Positions 38,345-49,286 of a stretch of DNA of 52,186 nucleotides are shown in pieces. Origin of the DNA: an uncultured Lentisphaeria bacterium (GTDB taxonomy: Bacteria; Verrucomicrobiota; Lentisphaeria; Victivallales; UBA1829); contig CASDPB010000008.1 of NCBI GenBank assembly GCA_949282305.1, forward strand, positions 1 to 52,186, written 5' to 3'. The position numbers and the translations under genes are program-made. Under the pieces are notes generated by a model that was not told the DNA's origin, did not search any database, and worked only from the letters and a program-made list of their open reading frames with translations. Every line of letters begins with the position of its first letter. Within the stretch, counting starts at the first letter, position 1.

Positions 38345-38548
38345 GCTGGATAGAATCCTCTGAAAAGGAGTCTGCCTGACATGGTGCCGGGGAGTCGTTT
38401 TTCCGAAGCCGTGTTTCTATACGGGGCGGTGCAGACTCTTTCCTGCCTTGCATTGCGGCGGATGCTGTTTTCCTCGTGAGACTCCATCCCTCTTCCGCTG
38501 TAATATATGATTCCGGCTGTTTTTTTCGGATTTTTTCCTTTTGCCCCC

Positions 38549-38603
38549 TTGTTTTTTTCCGGAAATCATTTATAATTTAATATACGGAATGATTGCGTAT
38601 ATT
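38549..38603 (+). promoter_or_regulatory. Promoter and inverted repeat upstream of the LacI-type gene
   Basis: TTGTTT (38549-38554), a 16-base spacer and perfect TATAAT (38571-38576) form the promoter. Immediately after it AATATACG (38579-38586) and CGTATATT (38596-38603) form a perfect inverted repeat with a nine-base gap. It spans the transcription start, a likely operator for self-control by the LacI-type protein. The stretch 38345-38548 between terminator and promoter holds nothing I can name. Confidence 0.6.
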
Positions 38604-44026: not shown

Positions 44027-45487
44027 TCACAGATCCTCAACTCTGATTGACTGCATTGCAGTCCCGCGCCGCATGACCCATACGGCGAGAATCAGCGTGA
44101 TGATTCCCGCAATGGCGTATGCGACCGGCAGATCCAGCCCCAGCCCGTAAGGGAGAAGCGCGGAATGCCGCGGGGAGGTCCAGAGGATAAACGTCGTGAC
44201 GATGAATGTCATGAACATTCCCGGCAGAAGCGTGACCCATGCCGGCTTTTTCTGCATGACCAGCCATACGGTTGCGCCGAGAAGGGTCGATGCTCCGAGA
44301 ACCTGGTTGCCCCATGCGAAATAGTTCCAGAGATTGTTGAAGGATTTTGCGCTGCTGTTTGACCACCAGAGCAGAAGCGCCACGATCACGATGAGGGGAA
44401 TGCAGACCCCGAGACGTTTTTTGAAAGGTTTCTGGTCGATCTTGAAGATTTCCGCAAGACTCAGGCGCAGGCTGCGCATGGCGGTGTCTCCGGAGGTGAT
44501 GGCAAGGATGATGACCGCGATCAGGGTGATGCCTCCCATTCCTTTTCCGAGGAATGTTTTCGTGATGACTTCCAGCGCAAGATTCGGGCTTTTCGCCATC
44601 AGTTCGGGGAACATGTTGTAAATGGCGAGTCCGCCCGCCGCCCAGATCATTGCGATAATGCCTTCCACAATCATCATGCCGTAGAAGTTGCGGCGTCCGT
44701 GGCGCTCGGTCTCCATGGTTCTGGCAATGATCGGGGACTGCGTCGCATGGAATCCGGAAAGGATGCCGCAGGCGATCGTGACGAAGAGAAGCGGAATGAT
44801 CGGTTCCTTGAACATTCCCGCCTTGAACTCCGCGGACTCCTGAAAGAGTTCAGGATTGCTGAATCCCGCTTTTACAAGCATGATGAAAAGCGCCAGGCTT
44901 CCAATCATCAGCAGAGCGCCGAAGAACGGGTAGACCATGCCGATGATCTTGTCCACGGGAAACATGGTGGCGCAGATATAGTAAAGAAAGATCACGGCGA
45001 CTGCCAGCCAGAAAAGCTCGCGGCCCGGAGTGAGAATGTTGAAAATCGCGGCGGGAACGTTGATGAAGACCGCGACGACAAGGAGCAGGAGAAAGCACAT
45101 GAAAACCGAAAAGAAGGCATAATAGGGTTTGCCGAGCGTGATCCGGATCAGTTTCGGCAGGTTCGCGCCTCCATGACGGATGGACATCATGCCCGATACG
45201 AAGTCATGCACCGCGCCGCCGATGATGTTTCCGATCGGAATGATCAGGAATACGACCGCCCCGAACTTGATTCCGAGAATGACGCCGATGACCGGACCGA
45301 CTCCCGCGATGTTCAGAAGCTGGATCAGCATGTTTTTCCAGTTGGGAATGACGACGAAATCGACTCCATCGTAGAATTTTTTCGCAGGCGTTTCCCGGTC
45401 ATCCGGCTCAATGATCTTTTCGATGAAACGTCCATAGGTGAAGTACCCGACAATCAGCACTATGATGCCGCCAAGAAACCACAACAT
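44027..45487 (-). CDS. Carbon starvation protein CstA-family transporter
   Basis: A 486-residue inner-membrane protein with many helices, of the CstA type (peptide or pyruvate uptake in other bacteria). Family signatures are YGRFIEKIIEPDDRETPAKK, YDGVDFVVIPNWKNMLIQLL, GVGPVIGVILGIKFG, IGNIIGGAVHDFVSGMMSIR and FHATQSPIIARTMETERHGR. It is shorter than E. coli CstA and belongs to the compact form. AAGAGGAAAA precedes the ATG. It lies 38 bases downstream of the NSS transporter on the minus strand, so the two transporters are probably one operon controlled from the palindromic region at 46956-47033. Confidence 0.92.
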   Translation of the reverse strand: MLWFLGGIIVLIVGYFTYGRFIEKIIEPDDRETPAKKFYDGVDFVVIPNWKNMLIQLLNIAGVGPVIGVILGIKFGAVVFLIIPIGNIIGGAVHDFVSGMMSIRHGGANLPKLIRITLGKPYYAFFSVFMCFLLLLVVAVFINVPAAIFNILTPGRELFWLAVAVIFLYYICATMFPVDKIIGMVYPFFGALLMIGSLALFIMLVKAGFSNPELFQESAEFKAGMFKEPIIPLLFVTIACGILSGFHATQSPIIARTMETERHGRRNFYGMMIVEGIIAMIWAAGGLAIYNMFPELMAKSPNLALEVITKTFLGKGMGGITLIAVIILAITSGDTAMRSLRLSLAEIFKIDQKPFKKRLGVCIPLIVIVALLLWWSNSSAKSFNNLWNYFAWGNQVLGASTLLGATVWLVMQKKPAWVTLLPGMFMTFIVTTFILWTSPRHSALLPYGLGLDLPVAYAIAGIITLILAVWVMRRGTAMQSIRVEDL

Positions 45488-45525: not shown

Positions 45526-46923
45526 TTAGAATTCAAGCAGATGGAACCGTTTGACGATTCCGATCACCCAGATCGCCAGAATGATGACCGGCAGTCCCCA
45601 GCGCATGTAGGGAATGAAAATATGCGGAAACTTCCAGCCTTTCCCGGTATTGAGCTCCTTGTAAAAATCTTCGCTGCCCCAGCCGAAGCGGTTGGTGCAG
45701 AATATCGTCAGGTAAAGCGCGCCCAGCGGAAGAAGATTGTCGCTGACAATGAAATCCTCCAGATCCAGGACATTGGATTCGCCGCCGAGCGGACGGAACT
45801 TCCGCCAGAGATTGAATCCGAGAATGCACGGCATGGAAAGCACGGCAAGGAGCGCGCCGAAGATGGAACAGGATTTTCTGCGGCTCCAGCGGAATTCCTC
45901 CATTCCGAATGCCGCGAGATTTTCAAAGACGGCGATCAGTGTCGATACTGCGGCAATGGAGAGAAAGAGGAAAAAGAGAAAACCCCAGAACGGACCGCCG
46001 CCCATATTGTGAAACACATTCGGAAGGGTGATGAAAATGAGGGAGTAACCTGCATCCGGAGCGATTGCATAGGCGGCACAGCAGGGAAATATAATCAGCC
46101 CGGAACAGATTGCCACCAGAGTGTCCAGACTGATAATCCAGACGCCTTCCGCCGGAAGAGAGCGGTCGCGTCCGATGTAACTGCCGCAGATTGCAATGCT
46201 TCCCACTCCGAGGCTCAATGTGAAAAATGCCTGCGCCATTGCCGCGTGCACGGTCGGCCAGATGCCGTCGCTGAGAAATTTATTGACATCCGGGTAAAGA
46301 AAAAAACTGACGCCCCGCATGGCGTTCGGGAGCCGGAGCGACTGCACCACAAGCAGAAGAAGCAGAAGAAACAGTCCGATCATCATGATCTTGATGACTT
46401 TTTCAATCATTTTCCGGACGCCGCCCATGCAGACGAATACCGTCAGGCAGAGCACAATCAGCATGAACAGCGTCTGGGAGCCCGGCGAGGCGAGAAAATT
46501 TTCAAAAAACGCCTTGCATTGCGCCGCGTCCATCGTCTGGAATCTGCCGGCGGCAAAGTAACAGGCGTAAGCAAGAAGCCAGCCGGAAATGACGGTGTAG
46601 AACATCAGCAGGAGCATGTTTCCCGTGAACAGCAGATAAACGGGGAGGTCCCAGCGGAATCTGACGTCTTTGTTCTGAAGTTTGCGGAATGCACCGGGAA
46701 AGGTGCTGCGCCCGGCACGCCCGAGCGAAAGTTCCATCATCATGACCGGAAAACCAAGCACCGCCAGAAAAAAGAGATACAGGAAAACAAACAGTCCCCC
46801 GCCATATTGCCCCGTGATGTATGGAAAGCGCCAGACATTGCCCAGTCCGATGGCGCAGCCTGCGGTCATCAGGATAAAACCGAGTCTGGACGCAAATTGC
46901 TCCCGTGATGGTTCCGAATTCAA
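45526..46923 (-). CDS. Sodium-dependent transporter, NSS (SLC6/LeuT) family
   Basis: LeuT-fold sodium-coupled amino-acid or amine importer with about 12 helices. Helix 1 has the unwound sodium/substrate segment GCAIGLGNVWRFPYITGQYG. Later landmarks are MMELSLGRAGRS, YTVISGWLLAY, MAQAFFTLSLGVGSIAICGS and a serine-rich helix 8 (LSIAAVSTLIAVFENL). I place the start at TTG 46923 behind AGGAG (465 residues). An ATG at 46953 would lie upstream of the expected transcription start and has no ribosome site. It is transcribed divergently from adenine deaminase and followed by the CstA-like gene. The pairing with purine salvage hints at nucleobase or amino-acid use, but the substrate is unknown. Confidence 0.9.
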   Translation of the reverse strand: MNSEPSREQFASRLGFILMTAGCAIGLGNVWRFPYITGQYGGGLFVFLYLFFLAVLGFPVMMMELSLGRAGRSTFPGAFRKLQNKDVRFRWDLPVYLLFTGNMLLLMFYTVISGWLLAYACYFAAGRFQTMDAAQCKAFFENFLASPGSQTLFMLIVLCLTVFVCMGGVRKMIEKVIKIMMIGLFLLLLLLVVQSLRLPNAMRGVSFFLYPDVNKFLSDGIWPTVHAAMAQAFFTLSLGVGSIAICGSYIGRDRSLPAEGVWIISLDTLVAICSGLIIFPCCAAYAIAPDAGYSLIFITLPNVFHNMGGGPFWGFLFFLFLSIAAVSTLIAVFENLAAFGMEEFRWSRRKSCSIFGALLAVLSMPCILGFNLWRKFRPLGGESNVLDLEDFIVSDNLLPLGALYLTIFCTNRFGWGSEDFYKELNTGKGWKFPHIFIPYMRWGLPVIILAIWVIGIVKRFHLLEF

Positions 46924-46955
46924 TTTAAGCTCCTGTTTGTTTTGTAAATACATAA

Positions 46956-47033
46956 AAAATACCATGTTTTCCCGAAAAATACAAGGTTTCTCATGGGAAA
47001 AGAGTTGTATTTTTCGGTTTTTGAGAGTATCTT
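46956..47033. promoter_or_regulatory. Symmetrical divergent promoters inside a 13-bp inverted repeat
   Basis: CCGAAAAATACAA (46972-46984) and TTGTATTTTTCGG (47005-47017) are exact inverted copies 20 bases apart. Each arm contains TTGTAT as a -35. To the right it is followed at 17 bases by TATCTT (47028-47033, toward adenine deaminase). To the left it is followed at 17 bases by TATTTT (46961-46956, toward the NSS transporter). One dimeric regulator could therefore control both directions. The CCGAA...TTCGG ends recall PurBox sequences of Firmicutes PurR, but that link is speculative. Confidence 0.7.
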
Positions 47034-47062
47034 GCGGCTCAAGTATTTTGGGAGGTGCCGGC

Positions 47063-48775
47063 ATGAGGCGGGAACTTGAAGAACTGGAGAAAATCATTGA
47101 TGAGGCGCAGGGGAATACCGGGGCGTCCCTCGTAATTAAAAATGTTTCGATTTTCCATCTGACAACCGGCGAAATGAGCCGGGGAGACATTGCCGTCTGC
47201 GGCGACCGGATCGCCGGCGTCGGGGAAACATACGGGGGGGAGCGCGAGATTGACGGAAGCGGGCTGACCGCCGTTCCGGGATTCATTGACGCGCATGTCC
47301 ATGTGGAGTCCTCGATGATTACGCCTTTCGAGTTTGAACGGTGTGTTCTGCCGCGCGGCGTGACGACTGCGGTCTGCGATCCGCATGAATTGTCGAATGT
47401 CGCCGGAACGAAGGCGATTGATTTCTTTCTGGATTCCGCCCGGCGCATGTGCATGGATCTTCGTGTGCAGATCAGCTCCTGTGTGCCCGCCACGCCGCTT
47501 GAGACCGCAGGTGCGGAGCTTTCCGCGGCGGATGTCTGCAGGTATGCCGCCGAGCCGCTTTCCTCCGGTCTTGCGGAACTGATGAACGTGCCCGGCGTGC
47601 TCTCCAAAGTGCCGGAGGTTCTTGAGAAGGCGGCGGCTTTCAAGGGACGGATTGACGGGCACTGCCCGATGCTGGTGGGAAAAGCCCTGAACGCATACCT
47701 TGCCGCGGGAGTCCGCAACTGCCATGAGTGCAGCACGCTGGAAGAGGCGCAGGAAAAGCTGCGCAAGGGAATGCAGATTCTGATCCGCGAGGGATCTGTC
47801 GCCCGCAATCTGGATACGCTCCTGCCGCTGATTACCGTAGGGAATGCGCCGTTCCTGGGGTTCTGCACCGACGACCGCAATCCGCTGGACATTGCCGCGA
47901 CGGGGCATCTCGATTATATGATTGCACATGCGATTGAATCCGGAGCGGACCCGCTGGCGGTGTACCGGATCGCCTCTTATTCCACGGCACAGCATTTCGG
48001 TCTGCGCGACCGCGGTCTGATTGCCCCCGGATACAAGGCGGATATTGTCCTGCTTTCGGATTGGAGGAAGTGCAGAATTGCGCATGTCCTGAAAAACGGA
48101 CGGATTGTGGATGATGCCCTGTTTGCTTCGCGCGGGCTTCCGCCGGATCCGTCGGCGTTTCTGAATTCCATTCAGCTGCAGAAGGTCACGGCGGATTGTT
48201 TCAAGGTCTTCTCGAAAAAAGCGGAGACTCCGGTGATCGGTATTGTGGAACTGTCCCTGACAACAGAGCATCTGGAACTGGAACTGCCGTTCGACGGTCG
48301 CGAGAAGAAATGCGCGCCGGAACTGGATGTCGCGAAGATCGCGGTTCTGGAACGCTACGGAAAAAACGGCGGCATCGGGCTGGGTTTTGTCAAAGGATTC
48401 GGTATGAAATCCGGTGCGATCGCGTCCAGCGTCGGGCACGACAGCCATAATATCTGTGTCGTCGGAACCTCCGACGAAGATATGGCGCTGGCTGTGAATG
48501 CGTTGATTGATTCGCAGGGCGGTTTTGCCGTTGTGAACCGGGGAAAGGTGGTCGATGTGATGCCGCTGCCTTTGGGCGGTCTGCTTTCCGACCATGATTT
48601 TGAGACTGTGGAAAAAGAACTGCTCCGGATTCATGAGGCGGTGAAAGTGACCGGCTGTCCGCTGGAGACTCCGTTTCTCCAGCTTGCATTCCTGCCGCTG
48701 CCGGTGATTCCGTTCCTCAGAATTACGGACCGCGGAGTCGTGGACGTCGCCGGATTTGACTTTATTGAGGTGTGA
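47063..48775 (+). CDS. ade: Adenine deaminase
   Basis: Deaminates adenine to hypoxanthine, feeding the Hpt enzyme encoded next. It is an amidohydrolase-fold enzyme of the bacterial Ade type, 570 residues. The metal-binding PGFIDAHVHVESSM, then DPHELSNVAG, IDGHCPMLVG, the Asp in FCTDDRNPLD and the C-terminal domain containing VGHDSHNICVVGTS are all present. The start is ATG 47063 with GGGAGG in front; the frame is open farther upstream only as a shadow of the transporter gene. It is divergent from the NSS transporter and 4 bases upstream of hpt, so ade-hpt form a purine-salvage operon. Confidence 0.95.
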   Translation: MRRELEELEKIIDEAQGNTGASLVIKNVSIFHLTTGEMSRGDIAVCGDRIAGVGETYGGEREIDGSGLTAVPGFIDAHVHVESSMITPFEFERCVLPRGVTTAVCDPHELSNVAGTKAIDFFLDSARRMCMDLRVQISSCVPATPLETAGAELSAADVCRYAAEPLSSGLAELMNVPGVLSKVPEVLEKAAAFKGRIDGHCPMLVGKALNAYLAAGVRNCHECSTLEEAQEKLRKGMQILIREGSVARNLDTLLPLITVGNAPFLGFCTDDRNPLDIAATGHLDYMIAHAIESGADPLAVYRIASYSTAQHFGLRDRGLIAPGYKADIVLLSDWRKCRIAHVLKNGRIVDDALFASRGLPPDPSAFLNSIQLQKVTADCFKVFSKKAETPVIGIVELSLTTEHLELELPFDGREKKCAPELDVAKIAVLERYGKNGGIGLGFVKGFGMKSGAIASSVGHDSHNICVVGTSDEDMALAVNALIDSQGGFAVVNRGKVVDVMPLPLGGLLSDHDFETVEKELLRIHEAVKVTGCPLETPFLQLAFLPLPVIPFLRITDRGVVDVAGFDFIEV

Positions 48776-48779
48776 ATGA

Positions 48780-49286
48780 ATGAAGACCCTTCTTACGGAA
48801 AATGAGATTGCGGAACGAATTGCGCAGCTCGGGGAGGAAATTACGGAGGCTTATCGGGGAAAGGAACTTACAGCCGTCATCATGATGAACGGTGCAGTGA
48901 TCTTTGCCGCCGATCTGCTCCGGAAAATCAATTTGCCGCTGTATATTGACTGTTTTTCCGCGTCCAGCTACGAAAATGACCGGAGCACTGGAAAAATTAC
49001 AGTGCGTTCCGCATTGAAACTCCCGGTTCAGGGACGGCACGTTCTGCTGATTGACGATATTCTTGATACGGGACTTTCCATGAAATATGCCGTTCATTAT
49101 TTTCTGGAACTCGGCGCCGCAAGCGTCAAAACCTGTGTCCTGATGGACAAGATGCTGGAAAGCAAACAATTTGAACATGCGGACTGGGTCGGATTCCGCA
49201 TCCCGGATCGTTACGTCGTCGGTTATGGGCTGGATTCTGGAGAATATTACCGCAATCTGCCTTATGTGGGAGTCCTGACGGACTGA
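48780..49286 (+). CDS. hpt: Hypoxanthine phosphoribosyltransferase
   Basis: Makes IMP (or GMP) from hypoxanthine (or guanine) and PRPP. The PRPP loop is VLLIDDILDTGLSM; the early loop has MMNGAVIFAADLLR; the base-binding region DWVGFRIPDRYVVGYGLD includes the conserved IP.RYVVGYGLD end. At 168 residues it is slightly short but complete. It lies 4 bases after ade, and the pair converts adenine to IMP in two steps. No plus-strand terminator is obvious; the hairpin that follows has its T-run on the other strand. Confidence 0.95.
   Translation: MKTLLTENEIAERIAQLGEEITEAYRGKELTAVIMMNGAVIFAADLLRKINLPLYIDCFSASSYENDRSTGKITVRSALKLPVQGRHVLLIDDILDTGLSMKYAVHYFLELGAASVKTCVLMDKMLESKQFEHADWVGFRIPDRYVVGYGLDSGEYYRNLPYVGVLTD

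Follow-up and report, generated by a model that had tools for sequence, protein, structure and literature searches.

An inverted repeat between purine-salvage and transporter genes of an uncultured Lentisphaeria bacterium is probably a pair of back-to-back promoters

Results

The short region between an adenine deaminase–hypoxanthine phosphoribosyltransferase gene pair (ade-hpt) and two transporter genes on the opposite strand (NSS-cstA) in an uncultured Lentisphaeria bacterium is probably a compact back-to-back promoter pair for a housekeeping polymerase of the sigma-70 type. Each promoter would read the octamer TTGTATTT and a -10 element 17 bases after its TTGTAT, in part extended; the leftward one would transcribe NSS-cstA and the rightward one ade-hpt, from -35 elements that point in opposite directions with 20 bp between them. 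The inverted repeat results from placing two promoters that share an unusual -35 octamer back to back. A dedicated regulator is unnecessary to explain the data.

The window, i.e., the whole stretch of 52,186 bases that we analyzed, is part of a 4.36-Mb draft genome. Judged by adenine deaminase, its relatives are Victivallales/Lentisphaerota metagenome genomes, and the protein is 79% identical in three other genomes of the same genus. On the plus strand, ade begins at ATG 47063 (47063-48775; TIGR01178, 590.8 bits, cut-off 472.5) behind the ribosome-binding-site-like GGGAGG at 47050-47055, and is followed by hpt (48780-49286, plus strand; TIGR01203, 166.1 bits, cut-off 150). The leftward pair consists of a transporter of the sodium:neurotransmitter-symporter (NSS) family (45526-46923, minus strand; NF037979 and PF00209) and, as its second gene, a CstA-family transporter (44027-45487, minus strand; PF02554); cstA adjoins NSS in the window and in the three relatives.

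The divergent promoters proposed in an earlier note on this DNA, with their -35 elements, 17-bp spacers and -10 elements, are borne out by the sequence and are kept without an indel in all four genomes of the genus. Toward NSS-cstA, on the minus strand, TTGTAT (46979-46984) is followed by TATTTT (46956-46961); toward ade-hpt, on the plus strand, TTGTAT (47005-47010) is followed by TATCTT (47028-47033). The spacer from TTGTAT to the -10 element is 17 nt on both sides (minus strand, 46984-46979 to 46961-46956; plus strand, 47005-47010 to 47028-47033), so that each strand carries a -35 and a -10 hexamer within the 16-18 bp range, pointing apart, the -35 being weak. TGG at 46962-46964 (minus strand), just before TATTTT, is what is termed an extended -10 motif. 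The two -10 elements are separate, with 66 bp between them (46962-47027). A generic sigma-70 scan lists neither promoter and gives a different, weak pair at 47021-47049; it misses both because TTGTAT matches TTGACA at only three of six positions.

The repeat itself is perfect. An inverted-repeat search returned the left arm CCGAAAAATACAA (46972-46984) and the right arm TTGTATTTTTCGG (47005-47017), each 13 nt long, 100% complementary and 20 nt apart, as the sole inverted repeat found in 46800-47200, and the bases confirm that each arm contains TTGTAT, as had been claimed. No second perfect repeat with arms of at least 13 nt and a loop of 3-40 nt is present in the window, and dinucleotide shuffles of the window (n = 40) gave a mean of 0.05 such repeats, with a maximum of 1. 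When the 139-bp intergenic region was shuffled, a repeat with 13-nt arms appeared in 0 of 3000 trials and one with arms of at least 9 nt in 115 of 3000. Since shuffles rarely or never yield such a repeat, it exceeds the shuffle expectation and is not explained by base composition; the view that the symmetry is unlikely to be chance is thus upheld for the repeat. By itself, the excess does not distinguish an operator from a pair of identical -35 elements.

Which bases of the repeat are under constraint? We compared the window's genome with three more of its genus (the four are labeled G000, G001, G002 and G003) and with one more distant case (G016). Measured from the outer edge of one -10 element to that of the other, the block is 78 bp long in all four genus genomes, with no indel, and 55 of its 78 columns are identical; the spacings of 17, 20 and 17 are constant. 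As a yardstick for the background we used the fourfold-degenerate sites of ade, of which 89 of 240 are identical across the four genomes, about half differing between the window and each relative. Above this background, all columns of the -35 and -10 elements are identical in the four genomes: 8/8 on each side for the octamer TTGTATTT, which is TTGTAT plus two bases (46977-46978 on the left, 47011-47012 on the right), and 6/6 for each -10 element, along with columns 46962-46965 beside the leftward one. In the relatives GATGG, containing the extended -10, precedes the -10 element on both sides; on the ade side the window has GAGAG and lacks the extended -10. The 20-bp center between the -35 elements (46985-47004; length 20 in all four) has 12 of 20 columns identical, with its edges kept (G, TTT, and GAAAAGAG at 46997-47004) and its middle 7 bases variable. 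The outer parts of the arms vary: one of five columns is identical for CCGAA on the left (46972-46976) and none of five for TTCGG on the right (47013-47017). Just outside the block, 3/19 and 3/24 columns are identical.

Judged by column identities against the fourfold-degenerate yardstick, selection maintains the octamers and the promoter elements, as well as the edges of the center, and not the outer arms. The 13-bp arm is unsupported as a functional unit because its outer five bases vary on either side. Of the arm conservation that had been expected in relatives, the part that stands is the inner octamer; the outer five bases fail. The full 13-bp arm is a feature of the window's species, where the extra bases that match outside the octamers are not conserved; what is conserved is the back-to-back promoter pair.

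Transcription would start near 46949 on the left and 47040 on the right, about 91 bp apart. The alignment supports TTG 46923 as the likely start codon of the NSS transporter, in agreement with the earlier note: TTG is found at the aligned position in all four genomes, with the ribosome-binding-site-like CAGGAG (46930-46935 in the window) or CGGGAG a few bases upstream. An in-frame ATG at 46953 is an unlikely start because it lies upstream of the probable transcription start. The stretch from the leftward -10 element to the transporter start (46923-46955, minus strand) is about 25 bases longer in the relatives than in the window, next to a 78-bp block of fixed length.

We searched for further copies of the arm and of the octamer. 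With at most one mismatch, the single 13-bp arm has 28 matches in the genome (three exact, two of them at this site) versus 5 for a reversed control. Many of the other 26 places read as coding by eye, and one lies before a tRNA gene; the excess was not accepted as a regulon. On the minus strand of the window, two imperfect copies of the 13-mer (2 mismatches each) lie at 38517-38561 in direct orientation, 32 bases apart.

Each of the four genomes has a single exact copy of the two-arm core, AAATACAA-N20-TTGTATTT, and it is at this locus. With up to three mismatches there are 32, 20, 22 and 29 places in G000, G001, G002 and G003, respectively, whereas the reversed control gave 22, 11, 7 and 18. 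Three further loci of G003 were checked, one with one mismatch (L113) and two with two mismatches. Apart from L113, no other two-arm site with 0-1 mismatches is present among the matches listed for the four genomes; annotation covered the sites at this level, and weaker ones may lie near purine genes. L113 is intergenic, before a single rightward ORF whose sequence shows no relation to purine salvage. Given this single ORF, and TTGTATTTCCG with TATTTT 16 bases after its TTGTAT, the locus reads as one promoter and not as a divergent pair or a purine site. The search for the arm upstream of other purine genes, as proposed in the earlier note, gave no example, the G003 locus being the sole other two-arm site of 0-1 mismatches among the matches listed.

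The four genomes contain 15 copies of the octamer followed at promoter distance by a -10 element (TTGTATTT-N15-TATNTT). Eight are at this locus (both sides, in all four) and seven elsewhere; three of the seven look like one promoter common to three genomes, before a gene for an AMP-binding enzyme. Additionally, TTGTATTTTTCCG stands upstream of a tRNA gene in the window's genome, and there 17 bases separate TTGTAT and TATCTT. Because the promoters of the AMP-binding-enzyme gene, of this tRNA gene and of L113 carry such elements, TTGTATTT serves genes without evident purine function. TTGTAT is a minority -35 element here. In a survey of 30 of the 41 tRNA matches, position 4 of the -35 element is A in 22, C in 3 and T in 2 of the 27 well-scoring upstream regions, by a scoring that favors TTGACA and chose another hexamer for the tRNA gene with TTGTATTTTTCCG.

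Beyond the genus, a close adenine deaminase is found in 10 of 36 genomes of the family, including all four genus genomes and six more. In G016, which belongs to another genus of the family, cstA and ade are directly divergent; an NSS homolog was not found in this genome. Its intergenic region has ATACAA-19 bp-TTGCAT, and the spacers from there to TATTGT and TAAATT are both 17 bp long. This is the same layout as at the genus site, with one -35 element changed and a center one base shorter. Upstream of NSS (16 of 30 loci) or cstA (13 of 30 loci), inspection by eye found the two-arm arrangement outside the genus only as this G016 variant. Among 137 genomes of the order, AATACAA-N20-TTGTATT is present in seven, four times at this locus and three times elsewhere; the latter three sites of this 14-base core have no ade, hpt, NSS or cstA within 1.9-3.0 kb.

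The right arm with its upstream bases, AAAGAGTTGTATTT, is found at 10 places in the 36 family genomes. Five of them are in the ade/cstA region (the four genus genomes and G016). As for the other five, one is upstream of an MFS transporter gene in G006 (L176, G006:C218:173-186) and four are inside reading frames as far as inspected; none shows a purine link. In the window's genus AAAGAGTTGTATTT is directed toward ade, but in the cstA-ade region of G016 (L179) toward cstA.

In the genome G004, of the same family, the cstA homolog (L202, G004:C69:1863-3350) has three in-frame TAG codons, and its frame then ends with TGA; the NSS homolog (L232, G004:C97:6494-7867) has one. Both proteins are otherwise open, with 66% (cstA) and 49% (NSS) identity. 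The TAG positions of cstA align to variable residues, and that of NSS aligns to I/L/V. It is possible that TAG is reassigned or suppressed in this lineage.

Discussion

The earlier note ascribed the symmetry to a single dimeric regulator, perhaps sensing purine or PRPP status, that switches both operons. In the form that fits the alignment best, a dimer would repress both operons from the conserved octamers of AAATACAA-N20-TTGTATTT, with which both -35 elements overlap. We consider this unlikely. The octamers are symmetric, are unusual as -35 elements and keep a fixed spacing of 20 bp in the four genomes, where the exact arrangement is unique; on the other hand, each octamer is merely a -35 element plus two bases, and the promoters alone could conserve it. 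A regulator of this kind would have close to a one-site regulon, since L113, before an unrelated gene, is the only other near match among those listed. The arms vary outside the octamer, the rightward element of G016 is TTGCAT at a spacing of 19, and the five neighboring genes scanned are all enzymes and transporters, with no regulator among them. A single dimeric regulator for both operons is left without support, and no candidate protein emerged. Since conservation alone cannot separate a -35 element from an operator, an operator made of the octamers only is possible. There is but a slim chance that a regulator specific to this Victivallales genus, unlike PurR, reads AAATACAA-N20-TTGTATTT and links purine salvage with NSS-cstA transport, acting as a switch with nearly a single site.

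The idea that purine or PRPP status is sensed is likewise unsupported: no other purine gene carries the two-arm core among the sites listed with 0-1 mismatches, and the PurR domain PuR_N (PF09182) was not detected in the four genus genomes, in a search in which the controls from Escherichia coli, Bacillus subtilis and Lactococcus lactis all matched, two of the three above the cut-off. A Bacillus-like PurR/PRPP system, with the CCGAA/TTCGG arm ends as PurBoxes, seems highly improbable. The arms of the window's species do have CGAA and TTCG in PurBox-like order, an inverted arrangement upstream of purine genes as in Bacillus. According to one account, PurBoxes are 14-bp inverted repeats with central CGAA/TTCG, 16-17 bp apart (PMC8789054). 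Compared with that description, the gap of 36 bp between CGAA and TTCG is wrong here, and these ends are the very part missing in the three relatives. Spacing, the absence of CGAA/TTCG in relatives and the failure to detect PuR_N all contradict control of the Bacillus type.

A nucleic-acid hairpin (a terminator, attenuator or RNA element), in which pairing of the arms would give a stem of 13 bp and a loop of 20 nt, is hardly credible: the repeat is upstream of both probable transcription starts, no terminator-like site was found, an Rfam search of 46700-47300 gave nothing up to E = 1, and the outer stem would not be preserved in the relatives.

The pair of back-to-back promoters is the best explanation. 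The conserved, A-rich edges of the center might be upstream contacts of the polymerase, and the center is so small that two polymerases could hinder each other. A point against a plain promoter pair is that both sides share an unusual octamer, unchanged in four species. This shared octamer, together with the conserved GAAAAGAG beside the ade-side -35 element, hints at a constraint beyond polymerase.

Divergent sigma-70 promoter pairs are common in bacteria and, like this one, point apart between genes separated by a short intergenic region; divergently transcribed pairs are described as making up about 25% of E. coli genes (PMC4469952). The present pair looks like an inverted repeat, unlike usual divergent pairs, because its two -35 octamers are identical. 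Bidirectional promoters with symmetric -10 elements, for which Warman et al. 2021 is cited, are another comparison. In such promoters one -10 element is shared and the starts are most often 18 bp apart (PMC12825309). What they have in common with our region is a sequence symmetry that serves transcription both ways; here, however, some 91 bp lie between the likely starts, and it is two distinct -35 elements that are symmetric, each with its own -10 element. We found no literature joining adenine deaminase, hypoxanthine phosphoribosyltransferase, PurR and promoter, and, by title, no Victivallis/Lentisphaerae paper on this promoter among the matches listed.

If a regulator did bind the octamers, it would tie purine salvage to two transporters in a phylum that has been little studied; nothing requires that. 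The region is a clean small case in which comparing related genomes distinguishes a pair of promoters from what looks like an operator: the conspicuous arms are partly specific to one species, and the conserved bases are mostly what polymerase needs.
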